A DNA stretch of 47,678 nt, taken from assembly GCA_036387335.1 (NCBI GenBank), contig DASVTZ010000151.1, forward strand, positions 1 through 47,678, read 5' to 3'. A program made the translations under genes and the position numbers. The notes beneath the pieces are model-generated. The model made no database searches, was not told the DNA's origin, and saw nothing but the letters and a program-made list of their open reading frames with translations. Below are positions 31,375-46,006 of this stretch, one piece after another; within the stretch, counting starts at the first letter, position 1; every line of letters begins with the position of its first letter. This stretch comes from Longimicrobium sp. Lineage in GTDB: Bacteria; Gemmatimonadota; Gemmatimonadetes; Longimicrobiales; Longimicrobiaceae.

Positions 31375-33351
31375 ATGTGCGGGATAGCGGGATTATTCGA
31401 CCAGAGGGGAGCTTCGTCCGCGGATGAGCTGGCCGCGGCGGCGACGCGGATGGCCGACTCGCTGCGCCACCGCGGGCCGGACGACGGCGGCGTGTGGGCC
31501 GATGCCGGCTGCGGCGTCGCCTTCGGGCACCGGCGGCTCTCCATCGTGGACCTCTCTCCCGACGGCCACCAGCCGATGGCCTCGGAGAGCGGCCGCTTCG
31601 TGCTCGCCTACAACGGGGAGGTGTACAACTTCCCCCACCTGAGGCGCGAGCTTGAGGCGGTCGGGCACCGCTTCCGCGGCCATTCGGACACCGAGATCCT
31701 GCTGGCGGCGTTCGAGGAGTGGGGGATCGACGGCGCGCTGGAGCGGTCGGCGGGGATGTTCGCCATGGGGATCTGGGACCGGCGCGACCGCCAGCTCCAC
31801 CTGGTGCGCGACCGGCTCGGCAAGAAGCCGCTCTACTACGGCTGGGCGGGCGACACCCTCCTCTTTGCCTCCGAGCTCAAGGCGTTCCACACCTTTCCCG
31901 GCTTCCGGCCGGAGATCGACCGCGGAGCGCTTGCGCTGCTGCTGCGGCACAACTGCGTGCCGGCGCCGCACACCATCTTTCGCGGCGTCTTCAAGCTCCG
32001 CCCCGGCACCCTCCTCACGCTGCGCGAGGGCGGCGCCCCGGCCTCCAGCACCGAGGGGGCGCAGGACCACGTGCGCACCTACTGGTCCGCCACGGCGGTG
32101 GCCGAGCAGGGAGCGCGCTCGCCGCTCGGCCTGACGGAAGAGGAAGCCGTCGACGAGCTCGAAGAGGTGCTGGGCCGCGCCGTGGGCGAGCGCATGCTGG
32201 CCGACGTGCCGCTCGGCGCGCTCCTCTCGGGCGGCATCGATTCATCCGCCGTGGTGGCGCTGATGCAGCGGCGGGCGGAGCGCCCGGTGAAGACCTTCAC
32301 CATCGGCCTCTTCGACCCGGTGCTGGACGAGGCGGTGGACGCGCGGCGCGTGGCGGAGCACCTGGGCACCGAGCACACCGAGCTGTACGTGACGCCCGAG
32401 GAGGCGCAGGCAGTCATCCCGCGCCTCCCCGACTTCTTCGACGAGCCGTTCGCCGACTCGTCGCAGATCCCCACCTTTCTGGTGTGCCAGCTCGCCCGGC
32501 GCGACGTGACGGTGGTGCTCTCCGGCGACGGCGGCGACGAGGTGTTCGGCGGCTACCAGCGGCACTTCCAGGCGGAGCGCCTGGCGCGCTACAACCGCGT
32601 GCCGCCGGTGATGCGCTCGGCCGCCGCGCGCCTCCTCACGGCACCCTCGCCCGAGGGGTGGGACCGCTTCTTCGACGCCGTGGCGCCGGTGCTGCCGGGC
32701 CGCGCGCGGCGAGCCCTGAGCGGCGACAAGGTGCACAAGTTCGCCGGGGTGCTGCCGGCGCGGGGGATGGAGGCGGCGTACCGCACCCTGACCTCGCACT
32801 GGCAGGAACCGCTCTCCGTGGTGCGCGGCGGCGGGCGCGAGCCGGTCACCGTGCTCACCGACCGCGCGCGCCGGCCGGACCTGCGCAGCTTCGCCCACGT
32901 GATGATGGTGCTGGACACGGTCAGCTACCTGCCGGACGACATCCTCACCAAGGTGGACCGCGCCAGCATGGCGGTGAGCCTGGAGGCCCGCGCGCCGCTC
33001 CTGGACCACCGCGTGGTGGAGTTCGCCTGGAAGCTCCCGCTGGGGATGAAGATCAGGGGGACGCAGGGAAAGTGGATCCTGCGGCAGCTCCTGGCCCGCC
33101 ACGTGCCGCGCGAGCTGTTCGAACGCCCCAAGCAGGGCTTCGGCGTGCCGATCGGCCCGTGGCTGCGCGGGCCGCTGCGCCCGTGGGCCGAGGCGCTCCT
33201 GGCCGAGGACCGCCTGCGCGACGAGGGCTTCTTCGCGGCCGAGCCCATCCGCCGCAAGTGGAGCGAGCACCTGGCCGGGCGCCGCAACTGGGCGTACGAC
33301 CTGTGGAACGTCCTGATGTTCCAGGCGTGGCGCGAGCGGTGGGCGCCCTGA
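31375..33351 (+). CDS. asnB: AsnB-like glutamine amidotransferase/asparagine synthase
   Basis: A 658-aa two-domain enzyme. The N-terminal Ntn glutaminase domain begins MCGIAGLF with Cys2 as nucleophile, and RHRGPDDGG, HRRLSIVDLS and YNGEVYNF follow. The synthetase domain has the PP-loop SGGIDSS (285-291) and SGDGGDEVFGGY. In cells it would transfer ammonia from glutamine to a carboxylate activated by ATP. Copies inside polysaccharide clusters are often thought to amidate uronic acids of the glycan rather than to make asparagine. Its neighbours here (PglA-like and PglC-like transferases) and the uronate genes at 42657-45968 support that reading, as inference. AGGAG lies eleven bases before the ATG. 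Confidence 0.92.
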   Translation: MCGIAGLFDQRGASSADELAAAATRMADSLRHRGPDDGGVWADAGCGVAFGHRRLSIVDLSPDGHQPMASESGRFVLAYNGEVYNFPHLRRELEAVGHRFRGHSDTEILLAAFEEWGIDGALERSAGMFAMGIWDRRDRQLHLVRDRLGKKPLYYGWAGDTLLFASELKAFHTFPGFRPEIDRGALALLLRHNCVPAPHTIFRGVFKLRPGTLLTLREGGAPASSTEGAQDHVRTYWSATAVAEQGARSPLGLTEEEAVDELEEVLGRAVGERMLADVPLGALLSGGIDSSAVVALMQRRAERPVKTFTIGLFDPVLDEAVDARRVAEHLGTEHTELYVTPEEAQAVIPRLPDFFDEPFADSSQIPTFLVCQLARRDVTVVLSGDGGDEVFGGYQRHFQAERLARYNRVPPVMRSAAARLLTAPSPEGWDRFFDAVAPVLPGRARRALSGDKVHKFAGVLPARGMEAAYRTLTSHWQEPLSVVRGGGREPVTVLTDRARRPDLRSFAHVMMVLDTVSYLPDDILTKVDRASMAVSLEARAPLLDHRVVEFAWKLPLGMKIRGTQGKWILRQLLARHVPRELFERPKQGFGVPIGPWLRGPLRPWAEALLAEDRLRDEGFFAAEPIRRKWSEHLAGRRNWAYDLWNVLMFQAWRERWAP

Positions 33352-34496
33352 GCTCCGCACCCACCACGGTGCTGGTGCTCGGTGGATACGCCCAGTCGCT
33401 GGTCACCTTTCGCGGGTCGCTGCTGCGCGCCATGGTCGAGCGGGGGCATCGCGTGGTCGCCTGCGCCCCCGCGGCCTCGCCGGAGATCGTGGAGGCGCTG
33501 GCGGGCATGGGGGTCACGTACCGCGACGTCCCCTTCAACCGCACCGGGCTGCGGCCGGACGAGGACCTGCGCACCCTGGCCGCGCTGGTGGCGCTCTTTC
33601 GCGAGGTGCGGCCGGACGTGATCCTGGGCTACACCATCAAGCCGGTGATCTGGGGGCTGCTGGCGGCACGGATCGCGCGGGTGCCGCGGCGCTTCGCCAT
33701 GATCACGGGGCTCGGCTACGCCTTCATGAGCGAGGGGCGCGAGGGAAGGGTGGTGCGGGCCCTGGCCCGGCGGCTCTACCGGCTCAGCCTGCGCGGCGCG
33801 GACCGCGTCTTCTTCCAGAACCCGGACGACCGCGCCACATTCGAGCGGCTGCGCCTCGTGCGCGACCCCGGGCAGGGAGTGATCGTCAACGGCAGCGGCG
33901 TGGAGACCGACCACTACACGCCGGTGCCGCTGCCAGAAGGGCCCGCCTCGTTCCTGCTGATGGCGCGCTTCCTGGCGGACAAGGGGATCCGCGAGTTCGT
34001 GGAGGCCGCGCGCATGGTCCGCGCGCGGCACCCGGAGGCGGTCTTCCGCATGGCGGGGTTCCGCGACGACGACAACCCCACCAGCATCTCGCAGGAGGAG
34101 CTGGACGCGTGGGGGCGCGAGGGGATCGTCGAGTTCCTGGGCTGGCTGCCGGACGTGCGTCCCACCATCGCCGGGACCACCGTGTACGTCCTCCCCTCCT
34201 ACGGCGAGGGGACGCCGCGCTCGGTGCTGGAGGCGATGGCGATGGGGCGCCCCATCGTGACCACCGACGCACCCGGCTGCCGCGAGACGGTGCGGGACGG
34301 CGTCAACGGCTTCCTGGTGCCCGTACGCGACGCCGCCGCGCTGGCCCGGGCCATGGAGGCGCTGGTGGTGGACCGCGCGCTGGTGGAGCGGATGGGGCGC
34401 GAGTCCCGCCGCATCGCCGAAGAGAAGTACGACGTCCACAAGGTAAACCGCGTCATCCTGGAGACGATGGGTCTGGCGGGCCCGGAGCCGGCGTGA
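33339..34496 (+). CDS. GT4-family glycosyltransferase, PglA-like
   Basis: A 385-aa GT-B enzyme. VTFRGSLLRAMVERGHRV, PFNRTGLRPDEDLRTL, YTIKPVIWGLLAARIARVP and RRFAMITGLGYAF follow the pattern of PglA/WbpX-like transferases that add the second sugar to an undecaprenyl-diphosphate-linked amino sugar. The C-domain motif is EGTPRSVLEAMAMGRPIVTT. The GTG at 33339 is in frame and overlaps the asnB stop by 13 bases; a CTG at 33348 is a possible alternative. It ends in a GTGA overlap with the PglC-like gene, so initiation and second-sugar addition are coupled. Confidence 0.85.
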   Translation: MGALSSAPTTVLVLGGYAQSLVTFRGSLLRAMVERGHRVVACAPAASPEIVEALAGMGVTYRDVPFNRTGLRPDEDLRTLAALVALFREVRPDVILGYTIKPVIWGLLAARIARVPRRFAMITGLGYAFMSEGREGRVVRALARRLYRLSLRGADRVFFQNPDDRATFERLRLVRDPGQGVIVNGSGVETDHYTPVPLPEGPASFLLMARFLADKGIREFVEAARMVRARHPEAVFRMAGFRDDDNPTSISQEELDAWGREGIVEFLGWLPDVRPTIAGTTVYVLPSYGEGTPRSVLEAMAMGRPIVTTDAPGCRETVRDGVNGFLVPVRDAAALARAMEALVVDRALVERMGRESRRIAEEKYDVHKVNRVILETMGLAGPEPA

Positions 34497-35116
34497 GCGC
34501 GGCCGTCAAGCGCCTGGTGGACGTGCTGGCGTCGGCGGGGGGGCTGCTGGTGCTCTCGCCCGTGCTCCTGGCCGTGGCGGTGGCGGTTCGCTGGTCGATG
34601 GGCTCGCCGGTCCTCTTCCGGCAGGTGCGCCCCGGGCGGCACGCGGTGCCGTTCGCGATGTACAAGTTCCGCACGATGCGCGACGCGCACGACGAGAACG
34701 GGAACCCGCTGCCCGACGGCGAGCGGCTGACGGCGGTGGGGCGCTTCCTGCGCAAGACCAGCCTCGACGAGCTGCCGGAGCTCATCAACGTGCTCCGCGG
34801 CGACATGAGCCTGGTGGGGCCGCGCCCTCTGCTGATGCGCTACCTGCCGTACTACACGCCGCGGGAGCAGCGCCGGCACGACGTACGGCCGGGGATCACC
34901 GGCTGGGCGCAGGTGAACGGCCGCAACACCGCCCGCTGGGCCGAGCGGCTGGAGATGGACGTGTGGTACGTGGAGCACCAGAGCCTCTGGCTCGACCTCA
35001 AGGTGCTCGCGCGCACGGCCGCCTCGCTGCTGGGGCAGAAGGGCGTGGTGGTGGACCCCCGCAGCGCCATGCTCAACCTGGACGAGGAGCGCTGGCCCGG
35101 CGGCGAGCCGCGGTGA
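34493..35116 (+). CDS. Undecaprenyl-phosphate phosphoglycosyl transferase, small PglC-like form
   Basis: A 207-aa monotopic membrane enzyme that transfers a phospho-sugar from a UDP-sugar to undecaprenyl phosphate, starting chain synthesis. One re-entrant hydrophobic segment is at about residues 6-30. The catalytic core of the bacterial sugar transferase family follows: MYKFRTM, TSLDELPELINVLRGDMS (contains the Asp-Glu dyad), VGPRPLL and RPGITGWAQVNGRN. It lacks the four extra helices of WbaP-type enzymes and matches PglC in size and order. A PglC-like enzyme prefers 6-deoxy diamino sugars such as UDP-bacillosamine, which fits the aminotransferase and acyltransferase genes downstream. Confidence 0.9.
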   Translation: MSAAVKRLVDVLASAGGLLVLSPVLLAVAVAVRWSMGSPVLFRQVRPGRHAVPFAMYKFRTMRDAHDENGNPLPDGERLTAVGRFLRKTSLDELPELINVLRGDMSLVGPRPLLMRYLPYYTPREQRRHDVRPGITGWAQVNGRNTARWAERLEMDVWYVEHQSLWLDLKVLARTAASLLGQKGVVVDPRSAMLNLDEERWPGGEPR

Positions 35117-35186
35117 AGTGCGCCCATGAATACGCGGCGAAGGGCCCCTCCGGGGGCGCTCGCCCGAACCTGGCTTCTGGAGCCGA

Positions 35187-36194
35187 TTGACCACTCTGCG
35201 CACCCCCGGCTTCGGGGCTCTGGTGATCTCGCTCGACTTCGAGCTGCACTGGGGTGTACGCGACCACAAGACGGCGGACGGACCGTACCGCGCGAACCTG
35301 CTGGGCGCGCGCGAGGCGGTGCTCCGCATGCTGGAGCTGTTCGGCGAGCTCGGGGTGGCGGCCACCTGGGCCACCGTGGGCTTCCTCTTCGCGCGCAGCC
35401 GCGACGAGCTGGAGCGCTTCTCGCCTGCCCTGCGCCCCGGCTACCGCGACGCCGCGCTCGATCCCTACGGCGAGCCGCTGGGCCAGGGCGAGGCGGACGA
35501 CCCGCTGCACTATGCGCCCAGCCTGGTGGACGCCATCCGCCGTGCGGACCGGCAGGAGCTGGCCAGCCACACCTTTTCGCACTACTACTGCCTGGAGCCG
35601 GGGCAGACGCGCGAGCAGTTCGCGGCCGACATGCGGAGCGCCGTGGAGATCGCGGCGCACCAGGGGGTGCGCATGCGCTCCATCATCTTTCCGCGCAACC
35701 AGCACAACCCTGCCTACTCCGGGGTGCTGCGCGACGCCGGGATCACCTGCTACCGCGGCAACCCGCCCGCGCGGATGTACCGGGCCACCCACTCCGCCGG
35801 GCTGCACCCCATAGCGCGCATGGCGGGGCTGGCCGACTCGTACCTGAACCTGGCGGGCACCGCCACGGCGCGGTGGGACGAGGTGGTGGAGCCGGACGGG
35901 CTCTGCAACGTGCCCGCGAGCCGCTTCCTGCGCCCCTACAATCCGCGCCGCCGCGCCCTGGAGCCGCTTCGGCTGCGGCGCATCGAGGGCGCGCTGCTGC
36001 ACGCCGCCCGCGAAGGGGAGATCTTCCACCTCTGGTGGCACCCGCACAACTTCGGCACGTACCTGGAAGAGAACATGGCCATCCTGCGCCGGATCCTGGA
36101 GTGCTACCGGCGGTGCAGCGACTCGCACGGAATGCGCTCGCTCACCATGGAAGAGGTGGCGGAGCAGGCGCTGGCGTGCGGAGCCCCCGCGTGA
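35187..36194 (+). CDS. Polysaccharide deacetylase (NodB-type)
   Basis: A 335-aa carbohydrate esterase-4-like enzyme. The metal/catalytic aspartate motif appears as ISLDFEL (D17), the HxxxH metal pair as SHTFSH (H128 and H132), and a later FPRNQHNP segment holds the third conserved region. It would remove N-acetyl groups from a sugar of the glycan or of a lipid-linked intermediate. There is no signal peptide, so a cytoplasmic substrate is likely. The TTG start at 35187 has TGGAG five bases upstream. It overlaps the formyltransferase by GTGA: deacetylation followed by formylation of the freed amine is an attractive pairing, as inference. Confidence 0.82.
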   Translation: MTTLRTPGFGALVISLDFELHWGVRDHKTADGPYRANLLGAREAVLRMLELFGELGVAATWATVGFLFARSRDELERFSPALRPGYRDAALDPYGEPLGQGEADDPLHYAPSLVDAIRRADRQELASHTFSHYYCLEPGQTREQFAADMRSAVEIAAHQGVRMRSIIFPRNQHNPAYSGVLRDAGITCYRGNPPARMYRATHSAGLHPIARMAGLADSYLNLAGTATARWDEVVEPDGLCNVPASRFLRPYNPRRRALEPLRLRRIEGALLHAAREGEIFHLWWHPHNFGTYLEENMAILRRILECYRRCSDSHGMRSLTMEEVAEQALACGAPA

Positions 36195-36964
36195 CCGCGT
36201 CGCGCAGGGTGGTGCTGCTGTGCGGCCCCGGCCCCTCCACCCACATCGTGCACCACGCGCTCACGCGCGAGCTGGGCCCCATCGACACCGTCATGGAAAC
36301 GGTGCCCACGCGCTGGTTCCTGCTGCGGCGCCGCGTCAAGAAGCTGGGGCTCGCCACGGTGGCGGGGCAGCTCCCCTTCCAGGCGGCGGTGGTTCCCCTC
36401 CTGCGCCGCGCCAGCGCCGGGCGCATCGAGGCGATCAAGCGCGAGCACGGGCTGGACGACTCCCCCATCCAGGGCCCCATCACCCACGTCCCCTCCGTCA
36501 ACACGGACGAGGCGCGCGAGGTGCTGCGGCGGCTGGACCCGGCGGTGGTAGTGGTCAACGGCACGCGCATCATCGCCCGCAAGACGCTGGACTGCGTGGC
36601 GGCGCCGTTCGTGAACATGCACGCCGGCATCACCCCCGCCTACCGCGGCGTGCACGGCGGCTACTGGGCGCTGGCGGAGGGGCGCCCCGAGCTGGCGGGC
36701 ACAACGATCCACTTCGTGGACGAGGGGATCGACACCGGCGGCATCATCGCGCAGGGCCGCTTCAGCGTGACGCCGGAGGACTCCTTCGCCACGTACCCCT
36801 ACCTGCACCTGGCCGCGGGTGTCCCGCTCCTGGTGCGCACCGTCCGCGGCATTCTGGACGGCAACCTCCAGCGCGACCCCATTCCGGAGGGGCTGGCCTC
36901 CCGCCTGCGCACGCACCCCACGCTCTGGGGGTACGCCGCGGCGCGCCTGCGCGGGGTGCGGTGA
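36191..36964 (+). CDS. Formyltransferase (sugar N-formyltransferase candidate)
   Basis: A 257-aa protein of the methionyl-tRNA-formyltransferase fold that uses N10-formyl-tetrahydrofolate. The catalytic triad is intact: N142 and H144 in VNMHAGITPAYRG, and D181 in DEGIDTGGII. It lacks the C-terminal tRNA-binding domain of Fmt. In sugar clusters such enzymes (for example those acting on dTDP- or GDP-4-amino sugars) formylate a 4- or 3-amino group. The open reading overlaps its neighbours on both sides by GTGA. Substrate not determinable from sequence; the PglE-like aminotransferase at 40036 is the likely source of the amine. Confidence 0.82.
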   Translation: MTASRRVVLLCGPGPSTHIVHHALTRELGPIDTVMETVPTRWFLLRRRVKKLGLATVAGQLPFQAAVVPLLRRASAGRIEAIKREHGLDDSPIQGPITHVPSVNTDEAREVLRRLDPAVVVVNGTRIIARKTLDCVAAPFVNMHAGITPAYRGVHGGYWALAEGRPELAGTTIHFVDEGIDTGGIIAQGRFSVTPEDSFATYPYLHLAAGVPLLVRTVRGILDGNLQRDPIPEGLASRLRTHPTLWGYAAARLRGVR

Positions 36965-37758
36965 GCGTGCGGGTGCGCCCCGCCACGGCGGACGACGCCG
37001 GGGCGATGGTGGCGGTGATCCGCGAGGGCTTCGCGCCCGAGCTGCTCGACGCCATGATCTACGGGTGCGCGGGGATGGACCGCTTCATCCGCGACGAGCT
37101 GGAGCTTCCCGCTGACCTCTGCGACCGCACGTACACCGTGGCGGAGCGGGACGGGCGCGTGCTGGGGTGCGTGGAGCTGCGCCGCCTGCCGGGCACGCTC
37201 ATCCTCAACTACATCGCGGTGGCCGCGGAGCTGCGCTCGTCGGGCGTCGCGCGACGGCTCCTGCTGGAGGCCATCGTGCAGGCGGGCGGCGAGCGCTACG
37301 GCACCCTGGCGCTGGACGTCTTCACCGACAACGACGTGGCGCGGGGCTGGTACCAGCGGCTGGGCCTCGCCGGGTCCGACCGCGCGGCGTGGTGGAGCGT
37401 GCCGATGCCGGACGCCGCCCCCGGTGCGCCGCACGCCGTCGTGAACGGCTTCCCACAGGCGCAGGCGTCGCAGCTCCGCTTCGGCTTCTCGCAGCTCGAC
37501 GTCGCCACGCCGGACGGCAGCTACGCCGTGGGCCGCATGGGAGCGAAGTGGTTCCGCCTGTCGCAGGCGGCCGCCCTGCGCGACCCCGCACTGCTCGCCA
37601 CGCTTCGGCTGCTGGACCCCGCGCGCGGGCTGCTCCTGATCCTTCCCGAAGGGCAGCTCCCCGCCGAGGCCGCCCCCGGCGCCGTCCGGCTGACGGAGAG
37701 CGTGCGGATGTCCATCGCCATCCCCGAGCTCCTCGGCCGGCTGCGGCAGGCCCGCTGA
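36961..37758 (+). CDS. GNAT-family N-acetyltransferase with C-terminal extension
   Basis: A 265-aa protein. The N-terminal 150 residues have a GNAT pattern: VRVRPATADDAGAMVAVI, then LNYIAVAAELRSSGVARRLL, which holds the acetyl-CoA loop. A further 110 residues (from about APHAVVNGFPQAQA) have no domain I recognise and read as a beta/alpha mixture with a GSYAVGRMGAKWFRL segment. Possible role: acetylation of an amino sugar in the same pathway as the adjacent formyltransferase and DegT-type gene. GTG start overlaps the upstream stop. Confidence 0.72.
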   Translation: MSVRVRPATADDAGAMVAVIREGFAPELLDAMIYGCAGMDRFIRDELELPADLCDRTYTVAERDGRVLGCVELRRLPGTLILNYIAVAAELRSSGVARRLLLEAIVQAGGERYGTLALDVFTDNDVARGWYQRLGLAGSDRAAWWSVPMPDAAPGAPHAVVNGFPQAQASQLRFGFSQLDVATPDGSYAVGRMGAKWFRLSQAAALRDPALLATLRLLDPARGLLLILPEGQLPAEAAPGAVRLTESVRMSIAIPELLGRLRQAR

Positions 37759-37770
37759 TTCCCCGTACCC

Positions 37771-38715
37771 GTGATCCCGGTGATCGAAAAGCTCGCGCGT
37801 GAGCAGCGGTTCCTGCGCCCCGTGCTCCCCTACGGAACGGCGCGCGAGGCGCAGCAGGTGTTCCTGGAAGCGGCGCGGCTGGCCGAGGACGAGGTGGTCC
37901 TCCTTCCGGCGTTCATCGGCTGGTCGGCGCGCGAGGGGTCCGGGCTGTTCGATCCCATCCAGAACCTGGGGCTGGCGTACCGCTTCTACCCGGTCACGGC
38001 CGACCTGCGCGTGGACGTCGATGCCTTCGCGGAGCTGCTGCGCAGGGAGCGAGTCGGCGTCGTGATCCTGGTGCACTACTTCGGCTACGTCGATCCCGCC
38101 TACCCCGTGCTGGTTGAGCTGGCGCGCGAGCACGGCGCTCGGCTGGTGCTGGAAGACGAGGCGCACGCCATGCTCAGCGACTGGGTGGGCGCCATCTGTG
38201 GGCGCGAGGGCGACGCGTGCATCGTGTCGCTCCACAAGCTGTTTCCCGTGGCCACGGGCGGCGCGCTCGTCTTCAACTCACCACGGCACGAGATGCTGGG
38301 CCGCATCGGAGCGCCCGCCGCGCCCGGTGCCCTCGATTTCGACTTTGCCGGCATCGCGCGGCGGCGGGTGCGCAACGCGGCATTGGTCGAGGAGCTGCTC
38401 CCGGAGCTTGCGGACGAGGTGGTCCCGCTCTGGCCGGGGCTCCCCGACGGTGTGGTGCCGCAGACCTACCCCGTGGTGATCCGGCGCGCGTCGCGGAACG
38501 ACCTCTACTTCCGCATGAACGAGGCGGGCTTCGGCGTCGTGAGCCTGTACCACACGCTGGTGAAGGAGCTGTCGGTGGACGACTTTCCCGCATCGCACCA
38601 GCTCGCGCGGCGGATCATGAACCTTCCCGTGCACCAGGATGCCGAGCCGCACCAGATCCGGGCGATGATGGAGGAGCTGGGCCGCCAGGTGAGGGCGCTC
38701 CCCCAGACGGACTGA
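37771..38715 (+). CDS. Divergent DegT/DnrJ-type PLP-dependent enzyme
   Basis: A 314-aa protein resembling sugar aminotransferases. VVLLPAFIGWSAREG, VVILVHYFGYVD, LVLEDEAHAML (PLP-pairing aspartate) and SLHKLFPVATGGALVF with the expected Schiff-base lysine K156 are recognisable. It is about 60 residues shorter than usual DegT proteins and lacks the N-terminal SGTAA-type phosphate-binding motif, so the activity may differ from classic sugar transamination. GTG start, 12 bases after the GNAT gene. It ends four bases before a long hairpin repeat. Confidence 0.75.
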   Translation: MIPVIEKLAREQRFLRPVLPYGTAREAQQVFLEAARLAEDEVVLLPAFIGWSAREGSGLFDPIQNLGLAYRFYPVTADLRVDVDAFAELLRRERVGVVILVHYFGYVDPAYPVLVELAREHGARLVLEDEAHAMLSDWVGAICGREGDACIVSLHKLFPVATGGALVFNSPRHEMLGRIGAPAAPGALDFDFAGIARRRVRNAALVEELLPELADEVVPLWPGLPDGVVPQTYPVVIRRASRNDLYFRMNEAGFGVVSLYHTLVKELSVDDFPASHQLARRIMNLPVHQDAEPHQIRAMMEELGRQVRALPQTD

Positions 38716-38718
38716 ATG

Positions 38719-38842
38719 GTCTCACACAGAGACACAGAGACACAGAGAGAGAACTTCAATCGATTTTCCTCTGTGTCTCTGTGTCTCTGTGTGAGCCATG
38801 CTGTTGCCGTTCTCCGCGGGTCGCCGCGCCTCCGCGTGAGAC
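38719..38842. repeat. Long hairpin repeat (B-type arms) plus an orphan C-type arm
   Basis: Left arm gtctcacacagagacacaga and onward pairs almost perfectly with a right arm ending tctctgtgtgagcc at 38796, around a 15-20-base AT-rich loop. Each arm is about 30 bases of gacacaga repeats. A separate right arm of the other type, cctccgcgtgagacc, ends at 38842 without a left partner. The hairpin begins four bases after the stop of the DegT-type gene. Confidence 0.82.
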
Positions 38843-38877
38843 CTTTCTGGCAGGTGGTGTGAGGTGCGGCGCCGCGC

Positions 38878-38883
38878 TATCTT
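38878..38883 (+). promoter_or_regulatory. Possible -10 element for the FemAB-like gene
   Basis: TATCTT, identical to the -10 of the Wzc-like gene, lies 43 bases before the ATG. The hexamer 17 bases upstream (TGGTGT) is a poor -35. Because a hairpin repeat separates this gene from the operon before it, its own promoter is expected here. Confidence 0.35.
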
Positions 38884-38926
38884 CCGCCGCTACTCTGCTG
38901 CCAGAGCAATCTTTCGCGGGGATCGG

Positions 38927-39997
38927 ATGAGCGACAGCGGTTTCACGGTTCTGGACGCGGCGGTCGAGGAAGAACGGCGGGAGTGGCTCGGGATGTGGGA
39001 GGCGTGGCCGCTGCGCGAGGTGTTCGCGCATCCGGACTACGTGGCGCTCTACGCGGAAGAGGGCACCGGGCGCGCGCGCTGCGCCGTCCTGCGCTCCGGC
39101 GGCGCGTCCGTGCTCTACCCGTTCGTCCAGCGCGACCTGCGCGGCGAGAAGTTCTGGGATCCGTCCGTGGGGCCCGCGAGCGACCTGATCAGCCCCTACG
39201 GCTACGGCGGCGCCTACGCGTGGGGCGACGCGCCCGCGGACCTCGCGGCCAACTTCTGGGTGCGCTTCGACGAATGGGCACGCGGGGAAAAGGTGGTGTC
39301 CGAGTTCGTCCGCTTCTCGCTCTTCCGGGAGATCCTGCTCGACTATCCCGGCACCCGCGAGGAGCGGCAGGACAACGTCGTCCGCTCGCTGGATCTGGAC
39401 GAGGAGCGGATGTGGATGGACTTCGAGCACAAGGTTCGCAAGAACGTCAAGCGGGCGCAGCGCAGCGGCGTAACCGTGGAGCTGGACCCGGACGGCGCGC
39501 GGCTCGGCGACTTCCTCCGCATCTACCAGTCGACGATGGACCGGCGGGAGGCCGATTCGCGCTACTACTTCCCGCGGAGCTACTTTGAGCGGCTCCAGCG
39601 CGGCCTGGCGGGGCAGTACATGTACTTCCACGCGCTGCTGGGCGGCGAGGTGGTCTCCACCGAGCTGGTGCTCGTGTCCGCGGAGAACGTGTACTCCTTT
39701 CTGGGCGGCACCGATCCGGAGGCGTTCGCCACGCGCCCCAACGACCTGCTCAAGCACGAGATCATCCGCTGGGCGGCGGGCGAGGGAAAGCGGCGCTTCG
39801 TGCTGGGGGGCGGCTATCAAAAGGATGATGGCATCTACCGGTACAAGCTGGCGTTCGCGCCCGGCGGGGCCACGCCGTACCACGTGGGATACCGCGTGCT
39901 GGACCCGGAGCTGTACGCCGCCCTGTCGCGCAACCGGCCGGGCGAGCCGGTGCCCGAAGCGTCCGCCGGCGGCTACTTTCCCGCGTACCGGGCCTAG
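38927..39997 (+). CDS. FemAB/BioF2-like acyltransferase (GNAT superfamily)
   Basis: A 356-aa cytoplasmic protein with two GNAT-like halves. An N-terminal region (VLYPFVQRDLRG, LISPYGYGG) is followed by the Acetyltransf_6-type core KVRKNVKRAQRSGV and a C-terminal half with YYFPRSYFERL and LGGGYQKDDGIYRYK. Relatives in polysaccharide and PEP-CTERM clusters are thought to add acyl or aminoacyl groups to sugars; FemAB proteins add amino acids to peptidoglycan precursors. The ATG at 38927 begins the conserved part; 21 extra codons upstream would overlap the presumed promoter. Likely paired with the aminotransferase 38 bases downstream, which could create the amine it acylates. Confidence 0.78.
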   Translation: MSDSGFTVLDAAVEEERREWLGMWEAWPLREVFAHPDYVALYAEEGTGRARCAVLRSGGASVLYPFVQRDLRGEKFWDPSVGPASDLISPYGYGGAYAWGDAPADLAANFWVRFDEWARGEKVVSEFVRFSLFREILLDYPGTREERQDNVVRSLDLDEERMWMDFEHKVRKNVKRAQRSGVTVELDPDGARLGDFLRIYQSTMDRREADSRYYFPRSYFERLQRGLAGQYMYFHALLGGEVVSTELVLVSAENVYSFLGGTDPEAFATRPNDLLKHEIIRWAAGEGKRRFVLGGGYQKDDGIYRYKLAFAPGGATPYHVGYRVLDPELYAALSRNRPGEPVPEASAGGYFPAYRA

Positions 39998-40035
39998 CGT
40001 TTTCCGCCCAGGCGGCTCTTACAGGTCATGACCGA

Positions 40036-41172
40036 ATGAACGAACCGCGAGAGCGTATCTATCTGTCGAGCCCCCACATGGGAGGCGCGGAGCAGGAGCT
40101 GGTCGCGGACGCGTTCGCGACCAACTGGATCGCGCCGCTCGGCCCGCACGTGGACGCATTCGAGCGCGAGTTCGCCGACATCGTGGGGAGCCCCCACGCC
40201 GCCGCGCTGAGCTCCGGCACCGCGGCCATCCACTTGGCGCTGATCCTGGCGGGGGTGGGCAGGGGCGACGAAGTGGTTGTGTCGTCGCTCACCTTCTCCG
40301 CGAGCGTGAACCCCATCCTGTACGTGGGCGCCACGCCGGTCTTCATCGATTGCGATCGCGCCTCGTGGAACATGGACCCCGCGCTCCTGGCGCAGGCGCT
40401 GCGCGACCGGGCACGCGCCGGGCGGCTGCCCAGGGCGGTGGTCGTGGTGCACCTGTACGGGCAGAGCGCGGACCTGGACCCCATCGTGGAGACGTGCCGC
40501 GAGCACGGCGTCACGCTGATCGAGGACGCGGCGGAGGCGCTCGGCGCCAGCTACAGGGGGCGCAGCCCGGGCACGCTGGGGCAGACGGGGATCTTTTCCT
40601 TCAACGGGAACAAGGTCATCACCACCTCCGGCGGCGGGATGCTGGTGTCGGACGACGCGGCGCTGATCGCCAAGGCGCGCAAGCTCGCCACGCAGGCGCG
40701 CGACCCGGCTCCGCACTACGAGCACTCCGAGATCGGCTACAACTACCGGCTCAGCAACGTGCTCGCGGCTATCGGGCGCGGGCAGCTACGCGTGCTGGCC
40801 GACCGCGTGGCCGCGCGGCGCCGCAACTTCGACTTCTACGCGCGAGAGCTGGGCGGCCTTCCCGGCGTGGAGCTCATGCCCGAGGCGCCGTGGGGCACGC
40901 ACAGCCGCTGGCTCACCTGCCTCACAATCGACCCCGCGGCCTTCGGCGCGGACCGCGAGGCGCTGCGGCTCGCCTTCGAGAACGAGAACATCGAGGCGCG
41001 CCCCGTGTGGAAGCCCATGCACCTGCAGCCCATCTTCGCCTCGCACGACAGCGTGGGCGGCGAAGTGGCCGCGGACCTCTTCGAGCGCGGGCTCTGCCTC
41101 CCCTCCGGCTCCAACCTGGAGACGAGCGACCTGGAACGGGTGTGCGACGTGGTGCGCCGGATGGCGCGCTAA
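40036..41172 (+). CDS. PglE-like UDP-4-keto-6-deoxy-sugar aminotransferase (DegT family)
   Basis: A 378-aa PLP-dependent enzyme. IYLSSPHMGGAEQELVADAF and NWIAPLGPHVDAFE are typical of the PglE/PseC-like LPS and bacillosamine aminotransferases. SSGTAAIHLAL binds the phosphate, LIEDAAEALGASY carries the PLP aspartate and SFNGNKVITTSGGGM the Schiff-base lysine K193. It would aminate C4 of the product of the 4,6-dehydratase at 11037, with glutamate as donor. Full length, so it is the true sugar aminotransferase, in contrast to the short relative at 37771. Confidence 0.9.
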   Translation: MNEPRERIYLSSPHMGGAEQELVADAFATNWIAPLGPHVDAFEREFADIVGSPHAAALSSGTAAIHLALILAGVGRGDEVVVSSLTFSASVNPILYVGATPVFIDCDRASWNMDPALLAQALRDRARAGRLPRAVVVVHLYGQSADLDPIVETCREHGVTLIEDAAEALGASYRGRSPGTLGQTGIFSFNGNKVITTSGGGMLVSDDAALIAKARKLATQARDPAPHYEHSEIGYNYRLSNVLAAIGRGQLRVLADRVAARRRNFDFYARELGGLPGVELMPEAPWGTHSRWLTCLTIDPAAFGADREALRLAFENENIEARPVWKPMHLQPIFASHDSVGGEVAADLFERGLCLPSGSNLETSDLERVCDVVRRMAR

Positions 41173-41466
41173 AACCGTGTCGAAAACCTCGCCTGCCGAA
41201 TGGTGCTCTACGCCGCACCCACGCAGCAGCGCGTTAACCCCGTCCATCTAGGCGTGCTCGGCAGTCTTCAGGTGCGCTACCGCCACAGGCGAGCAGCCTG
41301 GATCGCTCACTGCGAGATCATCTACTTATCTGGCGGTTCGTTTCGCAATACCAGCGCATGGCCCTGAGTTTGCGGCGGACGAGGCCCTAGACGGGAATGT
41401 CTGGCGTCGGAACGTGACGCGGGTTACCGTGTAGATTGTACGCCTCAGACACCTGGACGGTACAGA
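41173..41466. other. 294-base region without a supported gene, base composition shifts here
   Basis: Directly after the PglE-like gene, the strong G/C third-position bias ends and AT-richer words appear. One frame stays open for about 64 codons but matches nothing I recognise and has no good start. A weak -10-like TAGATT occurs at about 41431-41436, without a clear -35. This is the left edge of the small cassette that follows. Confidence 0.4.
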
Positions 41467-41694
41467 ATGCACACGTTGAAGCAACTGACGCAGACGCCGC
41501 TGTCGTTCCTTACGGGAATGGCACGCGCCCTGGATCTGGGTAACACGCTCGACGAGTACGACCTCTCCGCTGAGGACTTCGTGCGCCTTCCGACGGACGC
41601 CGAGATGTTGGCGTCTGACCGCGAAGCGCTTCGCGAGGACTGCTTCAACGCCTACTCTAGCGTGCTCGAAACCGTCGATGGGCAGACGCCATAA
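41467..41694 (+). CDS. Small acidic protein of unknown function (cassette gene 1)
   Basis: A 75-aa soluble protein, rich in Asp, Glu and Leu, with two predicted helices around LKQLTQTPLSFLTGMARALD and REALREDCFNAYSSVLE. No family recognised. GGACGG lies six bases before the ATG. It overlaps the DUF2335-like gene by 17 bases, so the two are almost certainly translated together. Codon usage is less GC-extreme than in the polysaccharide genes, which suggests separate origin. Confidence 0.6.
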   Translation: MHTLKQLTQTPLSFLTGMARALDLGNTLDEYDLSAEDFVRLPTDAEMLASDREALREDCFNAYSSVLETVDGQTP

Positions 41695-42145
41695 CCAGGT
41701 CACGCGTACGAACGCCGCTGGATCATCCCCGAACCAGAATTCACAGACCCAATCGGGCGGCTTTGTCGCCCGATTCGAGTCTCAGCAGGTCACGTACGAT
41801 AGTGTCCTCCCTCCCGCAGAGGAGCTGGAGCGGCTAGAGGCGTTGAGTCCGGGCACGATCGACTGGTTCAAGCAGCTCGCCGCCGAGGAGGCGCATTCTA
41901 GACGTGGCAGGATGGACCGAACGCTCGATCTCCAGTCGCGCCACCTCTGGTTCAGCGGACTCAATTCGACGCTGGGCGTAATGTTCGCGGGCACGATCGG
42001 GATCTGCGGGGTTGTGGGCGGCCTCTATGCGGCGGCGCAGGGGTATATCACGGATTGGGCGGGCGTGAGCACCGCTCTGGCATCGCTCGCTGCCCTTATG
42101 GGAGTGTTCGTCGTTGGTAAGACCAGGACCAACAAGAAGCCTTGA
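41678..42145 (+). CDS. DUF2335-like two-helix membrane protein (cassette gene 2)
   Basis: A 155-aa protein. A polar N-terminus of about 40 residues leads to LPPAEELERLEALSPGTIDW and a charged helix (KQLAAEEAHSRRGRMDRTLD). Two membrane helices, at about 90-113 and 127-146, are separated by a short loop, and a basic tail KTRTNKKP ends the protein. The order (LPPxEEL, PG, E-H-R helix, two helices, GVFVxG) is that of DUF2335 membrane proteins, whose function is not established. It overlaps genes on both sides (17 bases upstream, TTGA downstream). Confidence 0.7.
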   Translation: MGRRHNQVTRTNAAGSSPNQNSQTQSGGFVARFESQQVTYDSVLPPAEELERLEALSPGTIDWFKQLAAEEAHSRRGRMDRTLDLQSRHLWFSGLNSTLGVMFAGTIGICGVVGGLYAAAQGYITDWAGVSTALASLAALMGVFVVGKTRTNKKP

Positions 42146-42315
42146 GTCAAGATCACCCTGATTTCAAATTGAAACGAAAGCGGGGCCGGAGAGCGCGGCC
42201 AAGCTTGCCGGACTACCTGACGATCGTGAACGTGCCCGAGCACGGGCCTTTTAACACCGTGCGCGATGCGGAGGCGTTCGCGGACCGTCTTGCTCAGCGT
42301 GAAGGATACTCGTAG
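42142..42315 (+). CDS. 57-aa basic protein overlapping the DUF2335-like gene (cassette gene 3)
   Basis: A TTG start overlaps the preceding stop as TTGA, and the frame runs cleanly for 57 codons. The first 20 or so residues are strongly basic (FKLKRKRGRRARPS). A compact segment LPDYLTIVNVPEHGPFNT and a helix DAEAFADRLAQREGY follow, looking like a small folded or DNA/RNA- or membrane-surface-binding protein. No family recognised. The gene is short and has a weak ribosome site, so its reality rests on coupling to the upstream gene and sensible protein composition. Confidence 0.5.
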   Translation: MSQDHPDFKLKRKRGRRARPSLPDYLTIVNVPEHGPFNTVRDAEAFADRLAQREGYS

Positions 42316-42656
42316 CGTTGGAGTCGCTACTTCGGCGGGGCGCACGGAAAGCCCGACCCGCCTGCGCCTGATCGACTAAGATGTGAGATCAAGGAACGAT
42401 CCCATTGAAGTGGGGCGGTCTTAGTGGCCGCCCCACGGCCGTCTGTTGGCTGGCAATTCAATACACCGGCGGGCCGAATGGCACCCCCGGCACCCGGCCC
42501 CGAAGTTGCCAGGGGGCGCGGGTATGGCTAGAGTTAACGGCTTATCCGCGCGCGCGGCGGAGCCGCTAGAGCGGATCCGTTCAGTTGGCCTGTTCCCCCC
42601 GGCGAAGGCGAAGCGCCGCGCCGCGGACAGGTGAATTCTCAAGACCTCGGGACTTC
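42316..42656. other. Intergenic region with a perfect hairpin and the ugd promoter
   Basis: No gene supported in these 341 bases. A stem of 9 perfect pairs extending to 11 (GTGGGGCGGTC with GGCCGCCCCAC, loop TTAGT) at 42410-42436 could end the cassette transcript, although no T-run follows. The promoter at 42506-42534 serves the next operon. Confidence 0.55.
42506..42534 (+). promoter_or_regulatory. Sigma70-like promoter of the uronate operon
   Basis: TTGCCA (42506-42511) and TAGAGT (42529-42534) are spaced by 17 bases and lie 122 bases before the ATG of the UDP-glucose dehydrogenase gene. Same layout as the other promoters in the window. Confidence 0.65.
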
Positions 42657-44021
42657 ATGCATATCGCAGTCGTTGGAACGGGTTATGTGGGCCTGGTGGC
42701 CGGCGCGTGCCTCGCCGAGACGGGCAACGACGTGGTCTGCTGCGACATCGACGCGGGGAAGATCGACCGGCTGAACAACGGCGAGATCCCCATCTACGAG
42801 CCGGGCCTGGAGCCGCTGGTGGAGCGGAACCTCAAGGAAGGCCGCCTCACCTTCACCACCGACGTGGCGGGTGCCGCGGCGGAGGCCGAGGTCATCTTCA
42901 TCGCCGTGGGCACCCCCCCGGGCGAGGACGGCTCGGCGGACCTGCAGCACGTGCTGGCCGTGGCCGAGACCATCGGCCGCAACATGCCGGCCGACGGGCC
43001 GGAGAAGATCGTCATCACCAAGAGCACCGTGCCCGTGGGGACGGCCAACAAGGTGAGGGAGGCGATCGCCCGCCACACCGCGCGCCCCTTCCACGTCTGC
43101 TCCAACCCGGAGTTCCTCAAGGAAGGCGCCGCGGTGCAGGACTTCATGCGCCCGGACCGCGTGGTCGTCGGCGTGGACTCGGAGCACGCGCGCGCCCGCC
43201 TGGCGGAACTGTACGCGCCGTACGTGCGCTCGGGCAACCCGGTGCTCTTCATGGACATCGCGTCGGCCGAGATCACCAAGTACGCGGCCAACGCCATGCT
43301 GGCCACCCGCATCTCCTTCATGAACACCATCGCCGGGCTGTGCGAGGCGGTGGGCGCGGACGTGAGCCACGTGCGCAAGGGGATCGGCACGGACGAGCGC
43401 ATCGGGCCGGGGTTCCTCTTCGCGGGGATCGGCTACGGCGGCTCCTGCTTTCCCAAGGACGTGAAGGCGCTGGTGCACACCCTGCGCGAGACCGGGGTGG
43501 ACGCCGCGATCCTGGAAGGCGTGGAGCAGGTGAACGCGGCGCAGAAGCGGGTGCTGCTGGAGCGCGTGGTGGCCCAGTACGGCGACGACCTCACCGGCCG
43601 CCGCTTCGCCGTGTGGGGGCTCTCCTTCAAGCCCGAGACGGACGACATGCGCGAGGCGCCCAGCCTTACGGTGGTTCGCGGGCTGTGCGAGCGCGGCGCC
43701 ACGGTGAGCGCGCACGACCCCGAGGCGCGGCACGAAGCGGGGCGCTACTTCGCGGACCTGATCGCGACCGGCGCGCTCTCCCTGTGCGAGCACAACTACG
43801 ACTGCCTCAACGGGGCCGACGCGCTGCTGGTGCTCACCGAGTGGGGCCCGTACCGCACGCCGGACTTCGACCGCATCCGCTCCACCCTGGGCGAGCCGGT
43901 GGTCTTCGACGGGCGCAACCTGTGGGACCCGGCGCGCATGGCCGCCATGGGCTTCCGCTACCAGTCGATCGGCCGCCCGGCGCCCACCCCCGCGGCGGCG
44001 CCGGCCGCCGCCACCGCCTGA
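42657..44021 (+). CDS. ugd: UDP-glucose 6-dehydrogenase
   Basis: A 454-aa enzyme oxidising UDP-glucose to UDP-glucuronate with two NAD+. It opens [64 protein letters not shown] and the catalytic cysteine C264 in [11 protein letters not shown] follow, then [17 protein letters not shown] proline/alanine-rich tail ends the protein. The start is the ATG directly before the Rossmann strand; a longer frame upstream crosses the promoter. It supplies UDP-glucuronate to the next two genes. Confidence 0.95.
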
Positions 44022-44031
44022 GGAGCCGGCG

Positions 44032-44991
<960 letters not shown>

Positions 44992-44996
44992 GGCGC

Positions 44997-45968
44997 GTGA
45001 AGGTGCTCGTGACCGGTGGCGCCGGGTTCATCGGCGGCCACCTCTGCCAGCGCCTGCTGGACCGCGGCGACGAAGTGGTGTGCGTCGACAGCTTCGACAG
45101 CTTCTACGACCCGGCGATCAAGCGCGGGACCGCGGCCGCGCTGGCCCGGTCGCCGCGCTTCCGGCTGGTGGAGGGCGACATCCGCGACCTCGCCGGGCTG
45201 GAGCGCGAGCTCGCGGGCGAAGGCGTCGGCGCGATCGTGCACCTGGCCGCGCGCGCGGGGGTGCGGCCCTCCATCGAAGACCCCGTCCTCTACACGCAGG
45301 TCAACGTGGAGGGCACCGTCGCCATGCTGGAGCTGGCGCGGCGGCTGGGGGTGAAGCCGTTCGTCTTCGGCTCATCGTCCAGCGTGTACGGCGACACGTC
45401 GGCCGTGCCCTTTCGCGAGGACGAGCCCGCTGCCACCCCGATCTCGCCCTACGCGGCCAGCAAGCGCGCGGGCGAGCTGCTCTGCCACGCCTACGCGCAC
45501 CTGCACGGGCTGGCGGTGGTGTGCCTGCGCTTCTTTACCGTGTACGGCCCTCGGCAGCGCCCGGACCTGGCGATCCACAAGTTCGCGCGGCTGATGGCGG
45601 CGGGGGAGCCGATCCCCTTCTTCGGCGACGGCTCCACGCGGCGCGACTACACCTACGTAGACGACATCGTGCAGGGCATCGAGGGCGCCATCGCCTACGC
45701 CGCGGCGCGCGATGCCTCGTTCGAGGTCTTCAACCTGGGCGAGAGCGACACGGTGCCGCTGGCGCGCCTGGTGGAGCTGCTGGGCGCCGCCATGGGGGTG
45801 AGCCCCACCCTGCAGCGCCTCCCCGCCCAGCCCGGCGACGTGGAGCGGACCTACGCGGACATCTCGCGCGCGCGTGCCCTGCTGGGTTATACTCCGCGCG
45901 TTCCCATCGAGGAGGGGATCCCCCGCTTCGTGGAGTGGTTCCGGAGCGGGCAGGCCGCCGGGAGCTGA
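44997..45968 (+). CDS. UDP-glucuronate 4-epimerase-like enzyme
   Basis: A 323-aa NAD-dependent epimerase. [48 protein letters not shown] (the RAGVR segment typical of uronate 4-epimerases), SSSSVYGD, Y-x3-K in SPYAASKRAGE and RFFTVYGPRQRPDLA are visible. It would interconvert UDP-glucuronate and UDP-galacturonate. GTG start, five bases after the decarboxylase stop, so both enzymes draw on one UDP-glucuronate pool. Confidence 0.9.
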   Translation: MKVLVTGGAGFIGGHLCQRLLDRGDEVVCVDSFDSFYDPAIKRGTAAALARSPRFRLVEGDIRDLAGLERELAGEGVGAIVHLAARAGVRPSIEDPVLYTQVNVEGTVAMLELARRLGVKPFVFGSSSSVYGDTSAVPFREDEPAATPISPYAASKRAGELLCHAYAHLHGLAVVCLRFFTVYGPRQRPDLAIHKFARLMAAGEPIPFFGDGSTRRDYTYVDDIVQGIEGAIAYAAARDASFEVFNLGESDTVPLARLVELLGAAMGVSPTLQRLPAQPGDVERTYADISRARALLGYTPRVPIEEGIPRFVEWFRSGQAAGS

Positions 45969-46006
45969 CCGGCGCGAAAGCAACTGATTTCAAGATCGAA
46001 ACTTCC

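Follow-up and report, generated by a model that had tools for sequence, protein, structure and literature searches.

Two small overlapping genes inserted between sugar genes of a Longimicrobium sp. form a pair that recurs in temperate phages and across at least five bacterial phyla. The pair has the look of an uncharacterised membrane device, probably one related to phages. The pair lies in a contig stretch of 47,678 nucleotides that was analysed at its full length (hereafter the window). Its first gene encodes a small acidic protein, and its second encodes a two-helix membrane protein that homology places in DUF2335 (PF10097) as a divergent member. The two genes overlap, are conserved under purifying selection and are carried by phages. 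The reading that we favour, tentatively and at somewhat under even confidence, is of a mobile two-gene membrane module, borne by temperate phages and present in chromosomes as lone insertions, whose most likely role is superinfection exclusion or abortive infection. A third open reading frame (ORF) that overlaps the end of the pair does not recur with it.

A foreign block between sugar genes

The three ORFs and their overlaps of 17 nt (genes 1 and 2) and 4 nt (TTGA, genes 2 and 3) were found as an earlier note, made from the sequence alone, had described them (Table 1). Their acidic, membrane and basic character was likewise confirmed, with predicted pI values of 4.1, 9.4 and 9.8 for genes 1, 2 and 3, respectively, and two hydrophobic segments in gene 2. 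The same held for a composition unlike that of the neighbours. GC3 was 0.79, 0.74 and 0.67 in the three genes, as against 0.94 in the flanking aminotransferase gene, 0.96 in the flanking UDP-glucose dehydrogenase (UGD) gene and 0.94-0.97 in host genes. The 17-nt overlap suggests that translation of genes 1 and 2 is coupled.

The proposal that the genes had been inserted into a polysaccharide locus was supported by an empty site in a relative. In the congener G251, whose UGD is 99% identical, the sugar genes are the same and about 48 unrelated bp replace a 1281-bp block of the window; the alignment of the two runs at 93% over positions 32230-41166 and at 96% over 42448-45971. In a second congener, G285, the aminotransferase gene adjoins UGD and the block is again absent. 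The block is therefore an insertion, and its absence from G285 as well makes gain in the lineage of the window likelier than loss elsewhere. Terminal repeats marking a transposon were not found at the block, and its flanks are not repeated in the genome.

An 11-bp hairpin near the end of the block, within a segment (42385-42450) with a predicted folding energy of -31.3 kcal/mol (z -3.0), is probably where transcription of the inserted unit stops, immediately ahead of the UGD leader. A search of Rfam returned no match. The UGD leader itself (42448-42659) is a possible regulatory leader, being strongly conserved with G251 and containing a promoter-like site at 42506-42534, and likewise matched no Rfam family. 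Elsewhere in the window, positions 38711-38842 have matches at several sites in congeners, in both orientations, and resemble a small palindromic repeat family.

Table 1. Features of the inserted block and of a downstream gene in related phage copies (window positions unless a locus is named)
Feature	Position	Strand	Evidence or context
Inserted block, 1.28 kb, with module	41167..42447	.	blastn and global alignment against G251
Gene 1, 75-aa acidic protein	41467..41694	+	Profile matches upstream of DUF2335 genes; purifying selection in relatives; AlphaFold2 helices
Gene 2, 155-aa DUF2335-type membrane protein	41678..42145	+	phrog_3996 match; 11 aligned members match PF10097; AlphaFold2
Gene 1/gene 2 overlap, 17 nt	41678..41694	+	Similar overlaps in most other copies
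Conserved DUF2335 region (gene 2 residues 43-88), continuous with membrane helix 1	41804..41941	+	
Gene 2 membrane helix 1 (residues 98-116)	41969..42025	+	Hydropathy
Gene 2 membrane helix 2 (residues 128-146)	42059..42115	+	Hydropathy
Gene 3, 57-aa ORF, unsupported as conserved part	42142..42315	+	Homologue search, shuffles
11-bp hairpin	42410..42436	+	RNA fold
Gene for ~53-aa exported peptide	L057:4449-4610, L060:4436-4597, L113:4431-4589, L121:6937-7098		Enterobacterial phage copies

A DUF2335 protein and its constant upstream partner

The assignment of the middle gene to DUF2335, which the earlier note had offered from its motif order, proved sound. Against PF10097 the window protein scores 13.3 bits, under the Pfam cut-off of 25 bits, and on that score alone it would not bear the name DUF2335. 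It matches phrog_3996 at E 3e-13, its homologues share 31-40% identity, and all 11 members of a gene 2 alignment match PF10097 (best 5e-14; one row is misjoined at its start, outside the motif). The motif order of DUF2335/phrog_3996, GPxPPPxxLxxYExxLPGAADRIxxMAExQxxHRxxxE followed by two membrane helices, is common to gene 2, so that homology, conserved motif and helices all agree on membership. The window copy differs from the family in its divergence, and the family entries consulted do not mention a constant upstream partner.

AlphaFold2 predicted helices at residues 47-56, 60-120 and 128-153 of gene 2 (mean pLDDT 77), the second of which runs from the DUF2335 motif into the first membrane helix, and at residues 12-27 and 44-72 of gene 1; pTM was low (0.41-0.42) for both single-chain models. 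In gene 2, positive charges precede membrane helix 1 and follow membrane helix 2, a placement that suggests cytoplasmic ends on both sides. Searches of the PDB by sequence and by fold returned no match, and a viral fold search returned one, S5WJH0 (3.5e-4), which is nameless in the tables and gave no functional lead.

The gene 1 family is without a Pfam model. Its members show a pattern of a hydrophobic xFLxGxARALDLGG helix and then a D..A[LI]..DW..VG.DL..A helix, and no DNA-binding domain was recognisable in gene 1. A first profile, for which 12 upstream ORFs were used, was searched against 1821 ORFs, namely all those of the window and of 30 loci that carry DUF2335 or are candidates for it. 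It gave 21 matches below 0.01, in the window and in 20 loci, every one of them directly upstream of a DUF2335 gene, and no other ORF tested matched; 13 of the 20 matching loci lay outside the training set. Gemmatimonadota loci with a real gene 2 numbered 26, excluding the window, and 20 of these carry a match to the profile. The remaining six comprise three near-identical loci with a divergent look-alike, one locus with a weak match to a second profile, one that is frameshifted and one (L050) that has none. An overlap between genes 1 and 2 is usual and is mostly of 4 to 77 nt, as measured from starts chosen by the analyst.

On phages and plasmids of Spirochaetota, Pseudomonadota, Bacillota and Actinomycetota, 19 DUF2335 loci were examined, and each has a similar small ORF ahead of the DUF2335 gene. 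At E<0.01, 16 of the 19 pass the gene 1 profile, in a small search set and with five of the loci having contributed to the second profile. The pair was found in a Leptospira plasmid and phage and in records of Rahnella, Enterobacter, E. coli, Klebsiella, Pseudomonas, Alteromonas, Agrobacterium, Azospirillum, Streptococcus, Lactococcus, Lacticaseibacillus, Staphylococcus and Arthrobacter. In the Azospirillum, both Klebsiella and the Enterobacter cancerogenus records the small upstream gene is unannotated. Genes 1 and 2 recur together beside unrelated genes, a test that the earlier note had proposed for all three, both in Gemmatimonadota (20/26 loci) and on phages and plasmids (19/19). Gene 1 is under purifying selection (dN/dS 0.12-0.35 in enterobacterial pairs and one congener pair), and gene 2 under stronger purifying selection still, with dN/dS of 0.04 in the one pair that was not saturated.

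In Pseudomonas phage MD8, gp32 has been described as the only protein absent from other phages (PMC8508860). If its numbering follows the locus tags, gp32 is L136:3200-3439, which is homologous to gene 1 and lies upstream of the DUF2335 gene.

Phage carriage, gain and decay of the pair

In phages the neighbours of the pair are lysis, attachment-site or tail genes. In those of Streptococcus, Lactococcus and Staphylococcus the pair follows the endolysin gene, and in those of Staphylococcus and Arthrobacter and in Pseudomonas phage MD8 it is found beside the integrase gene. In the E. coli and Klebsiella BUCT711 phages it stands by itself in forward orientation, amid late genes that run the other way. 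Positions next to an endolysin or integrase gene, or isolated in the late region, are the usual sites of lysogenic-conversion genes. The PHROG class of phrog_3996 is 'moron', and the accessory position in temperate phages that marks a phage moron was found for the pair. Of 5426 complete E. coli genomes, 415 (~7.6%) contain DNA that matches one of the phage versions, the match covering at least 80% of the phage query in 66 of the 415. While tblastn of the window protein against phage and plasmid records gave no match, a more typical DUF2335 member used as query did match in such records. Single-protein scans of viral contigs and genome contigs gave no confirmed relatives.

In Gemmatimonadota, DUF2335 above the cut-off was found in 26 of 395 genomes, with a patchy distribution and with two or three copies in some. 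The neighbours of these copies are heterogeneous, being mostly ordinary metabolic and signalling genes, and tallies by family of 125 neighbours returned gene 1 as the only recurrent partner. One BREX-type gene, PIN domains and kinases are scattered near the copies. A defence-island setting was rejected for them, and defence islands, which the earlier note had named as an example of where to look, are not where the Gemmatimonadota copies mainly lie.

The genome of the window holds two further copies of the pair, on contigs C246 and C217. The former is absent from G251. The latter has a counterpart there (L131:8096-8758), in which gene 1 is open and gene 2 lacks about 66 residues, including the DUF2335 motif. 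Similarly, the orthologue in G311 (L011:1283-1863) of a G379 copy has kept gene 1 and lost the membrane half of gene 2. Loss of gene 2 with retention of gene 1, seen in these two cases, a small number, is what would be expected of a harmful effector with a neutralising partner. At the site of the window genome's third copy (L085:5698-6481), G251 carries about 585 bp of unrelated sequence (L133:3891-4475), and this may be a spot of repeated insertion.

Proposed function and rival readings

From where phages carry the pair, we infer an anti-phage role. Genes 1 and 2 would travel on temperate phages and persist as solitary chromosomal insertions. Gene 1, made just before gene 2 from the same message, would probably act as a small partner, located in the cytoplasm or at the membrane surface, which binds the DUF2335 helix and keeps gene 2 inactive or folded. 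Gene 2 would probably form an inner-membrane oligomer of two-helix hairpins with both ends cytoplasmic, as its charges suggest, and its long DUF2335 helix is predicted to pass from the cytoplasm into membrane helix 1. The pair would most likely shield the lysogen or host from other phages, either through superinfection exclusion or by damaging the membrane once infection has taken place. The fuller proposal, of an undescribed anti-phage module that spans phyla, that pairs a two-helix DUF2335 membrane effector with a small cytoplasmic protein as its gate, often overlooked in annotation, and that is carried by temperate phages and by several percent of E. coli genomes, is put forward with caution as a possibility short of an even balance. 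The earlier suggestion of a regulatory, stress or defence/toxin-like unit stands in part, in that the phage association makes a defence or toxin-like role plausible, whereas the Gemmatimonadota copies are not mainly in defence islands. PADLOC 2023 returned 0 families for both window proteins, with isolated weak matches in relatives.

RexA/RexB and other phage exclusion pairs are two-gene units of temperate phages that encode one membrane and one cytoplasmic protein, and genes 1 and 2 are arranged in the same way. However, gene 1 is far smaller than RexA, and the likeness drawn here is one of gene organisation. The SLATT/DUF4231 effectors of nucleotide-signal conflict systems share with gene 2 a long helix leading into a two-helix membrane hairpin, with very weak profile echoes. 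Gene 2 nevertheless scores far under the cut-off (12.2 bits against 41 for NCBIfam SLATT_1), and the family tallies of its neighbours showed no cyclase, SMODS, SLOG or further sensor gene that recurs beside it.

The pair could instead serve maintenance of a toxin-antitoxin type, with gene 2 as a membrane toxin and gene 1 as its neutraliser, persisting by addiction rather than by defence; we consider this doubtful, though deserving of some weight. Membrane-toxin modules are likewise small overlapping bicistrons, mobile and patchy in spread, and the small upstream partner, the several copies per genome, the lone insertions and the retention of gene 1 where gene 2 is lost would all suit such a module. 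However, genes 1 and 2 match no toxin or antitoxin family and gene 1 lacks a recognisable DNA-binding domain. Purifying selection as strong as that on gene 2 is no mark of toxins in particular, and the moron position suggests a benefit to lysogens.

A host function in the envelope or in signalling, unrelated to phages and built on a stress-sensing membrane protein with a small regulator, is unlikely. Histidine kinases or response regulators do occur among the neighbours, and a DUF2335 gene is listed among those affecting potato maceration in Dickeya zeae (PMC8809351). Yet presence is patchy and the neighbourhood is not conserved, phages carry the pair across phyla, and at the window locus the composition is foreign and the site empty in a relative. 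Another study uses the label 'DUF2335 (phospholipase)' (PMC6267618). In the full text of 5.39 million open papers the family is named in these two only, neither of them concerned with its mechanism, and no description of the two-gene module was found in the literature searched, mostly without subscription papers. The phospholipase label may, we assume, be a slip for DUF2235.

An accessory lysis or lysis-timing module of phages, holin/antiholin-like and domesticated in chromosomes, would fit the two membrane helices of gene 2 and the place of the pair beside the endolysin in several Gram-positive phages, but is improbable given that these phages carry their own annotated holins, that the E. coli, Klebsiella, Pseudomonas and Arthrobacter phages have the pair away from their lysis genes, that lone copies occur in Gemmatimonadota chromosomes, and that gene 2 has a long conserved cytoplasmic helix, which is atypical of holins.

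Gene 3 was rejected as a conserved partner. It has no convincing homologue in 395 genomes of the phylum or 10 of the genus, nor any in a collection of 84,980 species scanned by a method that detects close relatives only, and no downstream gene recurs in other copies of the pair. The trio of the earlier note, which was to be given up if the 57-aa frame proved not to be conserved at the protein level, is thus really a duo. Likewise, an arrangement beyond chance holds for genes 1 and 2 and fails for gene 3: in 18% of dinucleotide shuffles, an ORF of 57 aa or more begins equally near the gene 2 stop. Gene 3, which is basic mainly at its N-terminus, could be a chance ORF; its weak codon periodicity (a dip in GC at the second codon position, p 0.014) leaves it a possible lineage-specific gene. 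That it is the basic partner in a true three-gene unit of this lineage would accord with the TTGA overlap, this GC dip and the hairpin that it precedes, but the lack of homologues, the lack of a recurrent downstream gene and the frequency of such ORFs by chance make this very unlikely. The enterobacterial phage copies have a common third gene of their own downstream, encoding an exported peptide of about 53 aa (MKKAFAALFVLLSL..QAFAGRCQHDSDTAADGSRCGGRSADSRPGG) that is unrelated to gene 3 of the window.

With a constant partner across five phyla and on many temperate phages, DUF2335 changes from an orphan membrane family into a defined two-component module, one whose partner gene has been missed in several annotations. 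If the pair does exclude phages, it would represent a widespread defence that is missing from the PADLOC catalogue searched.
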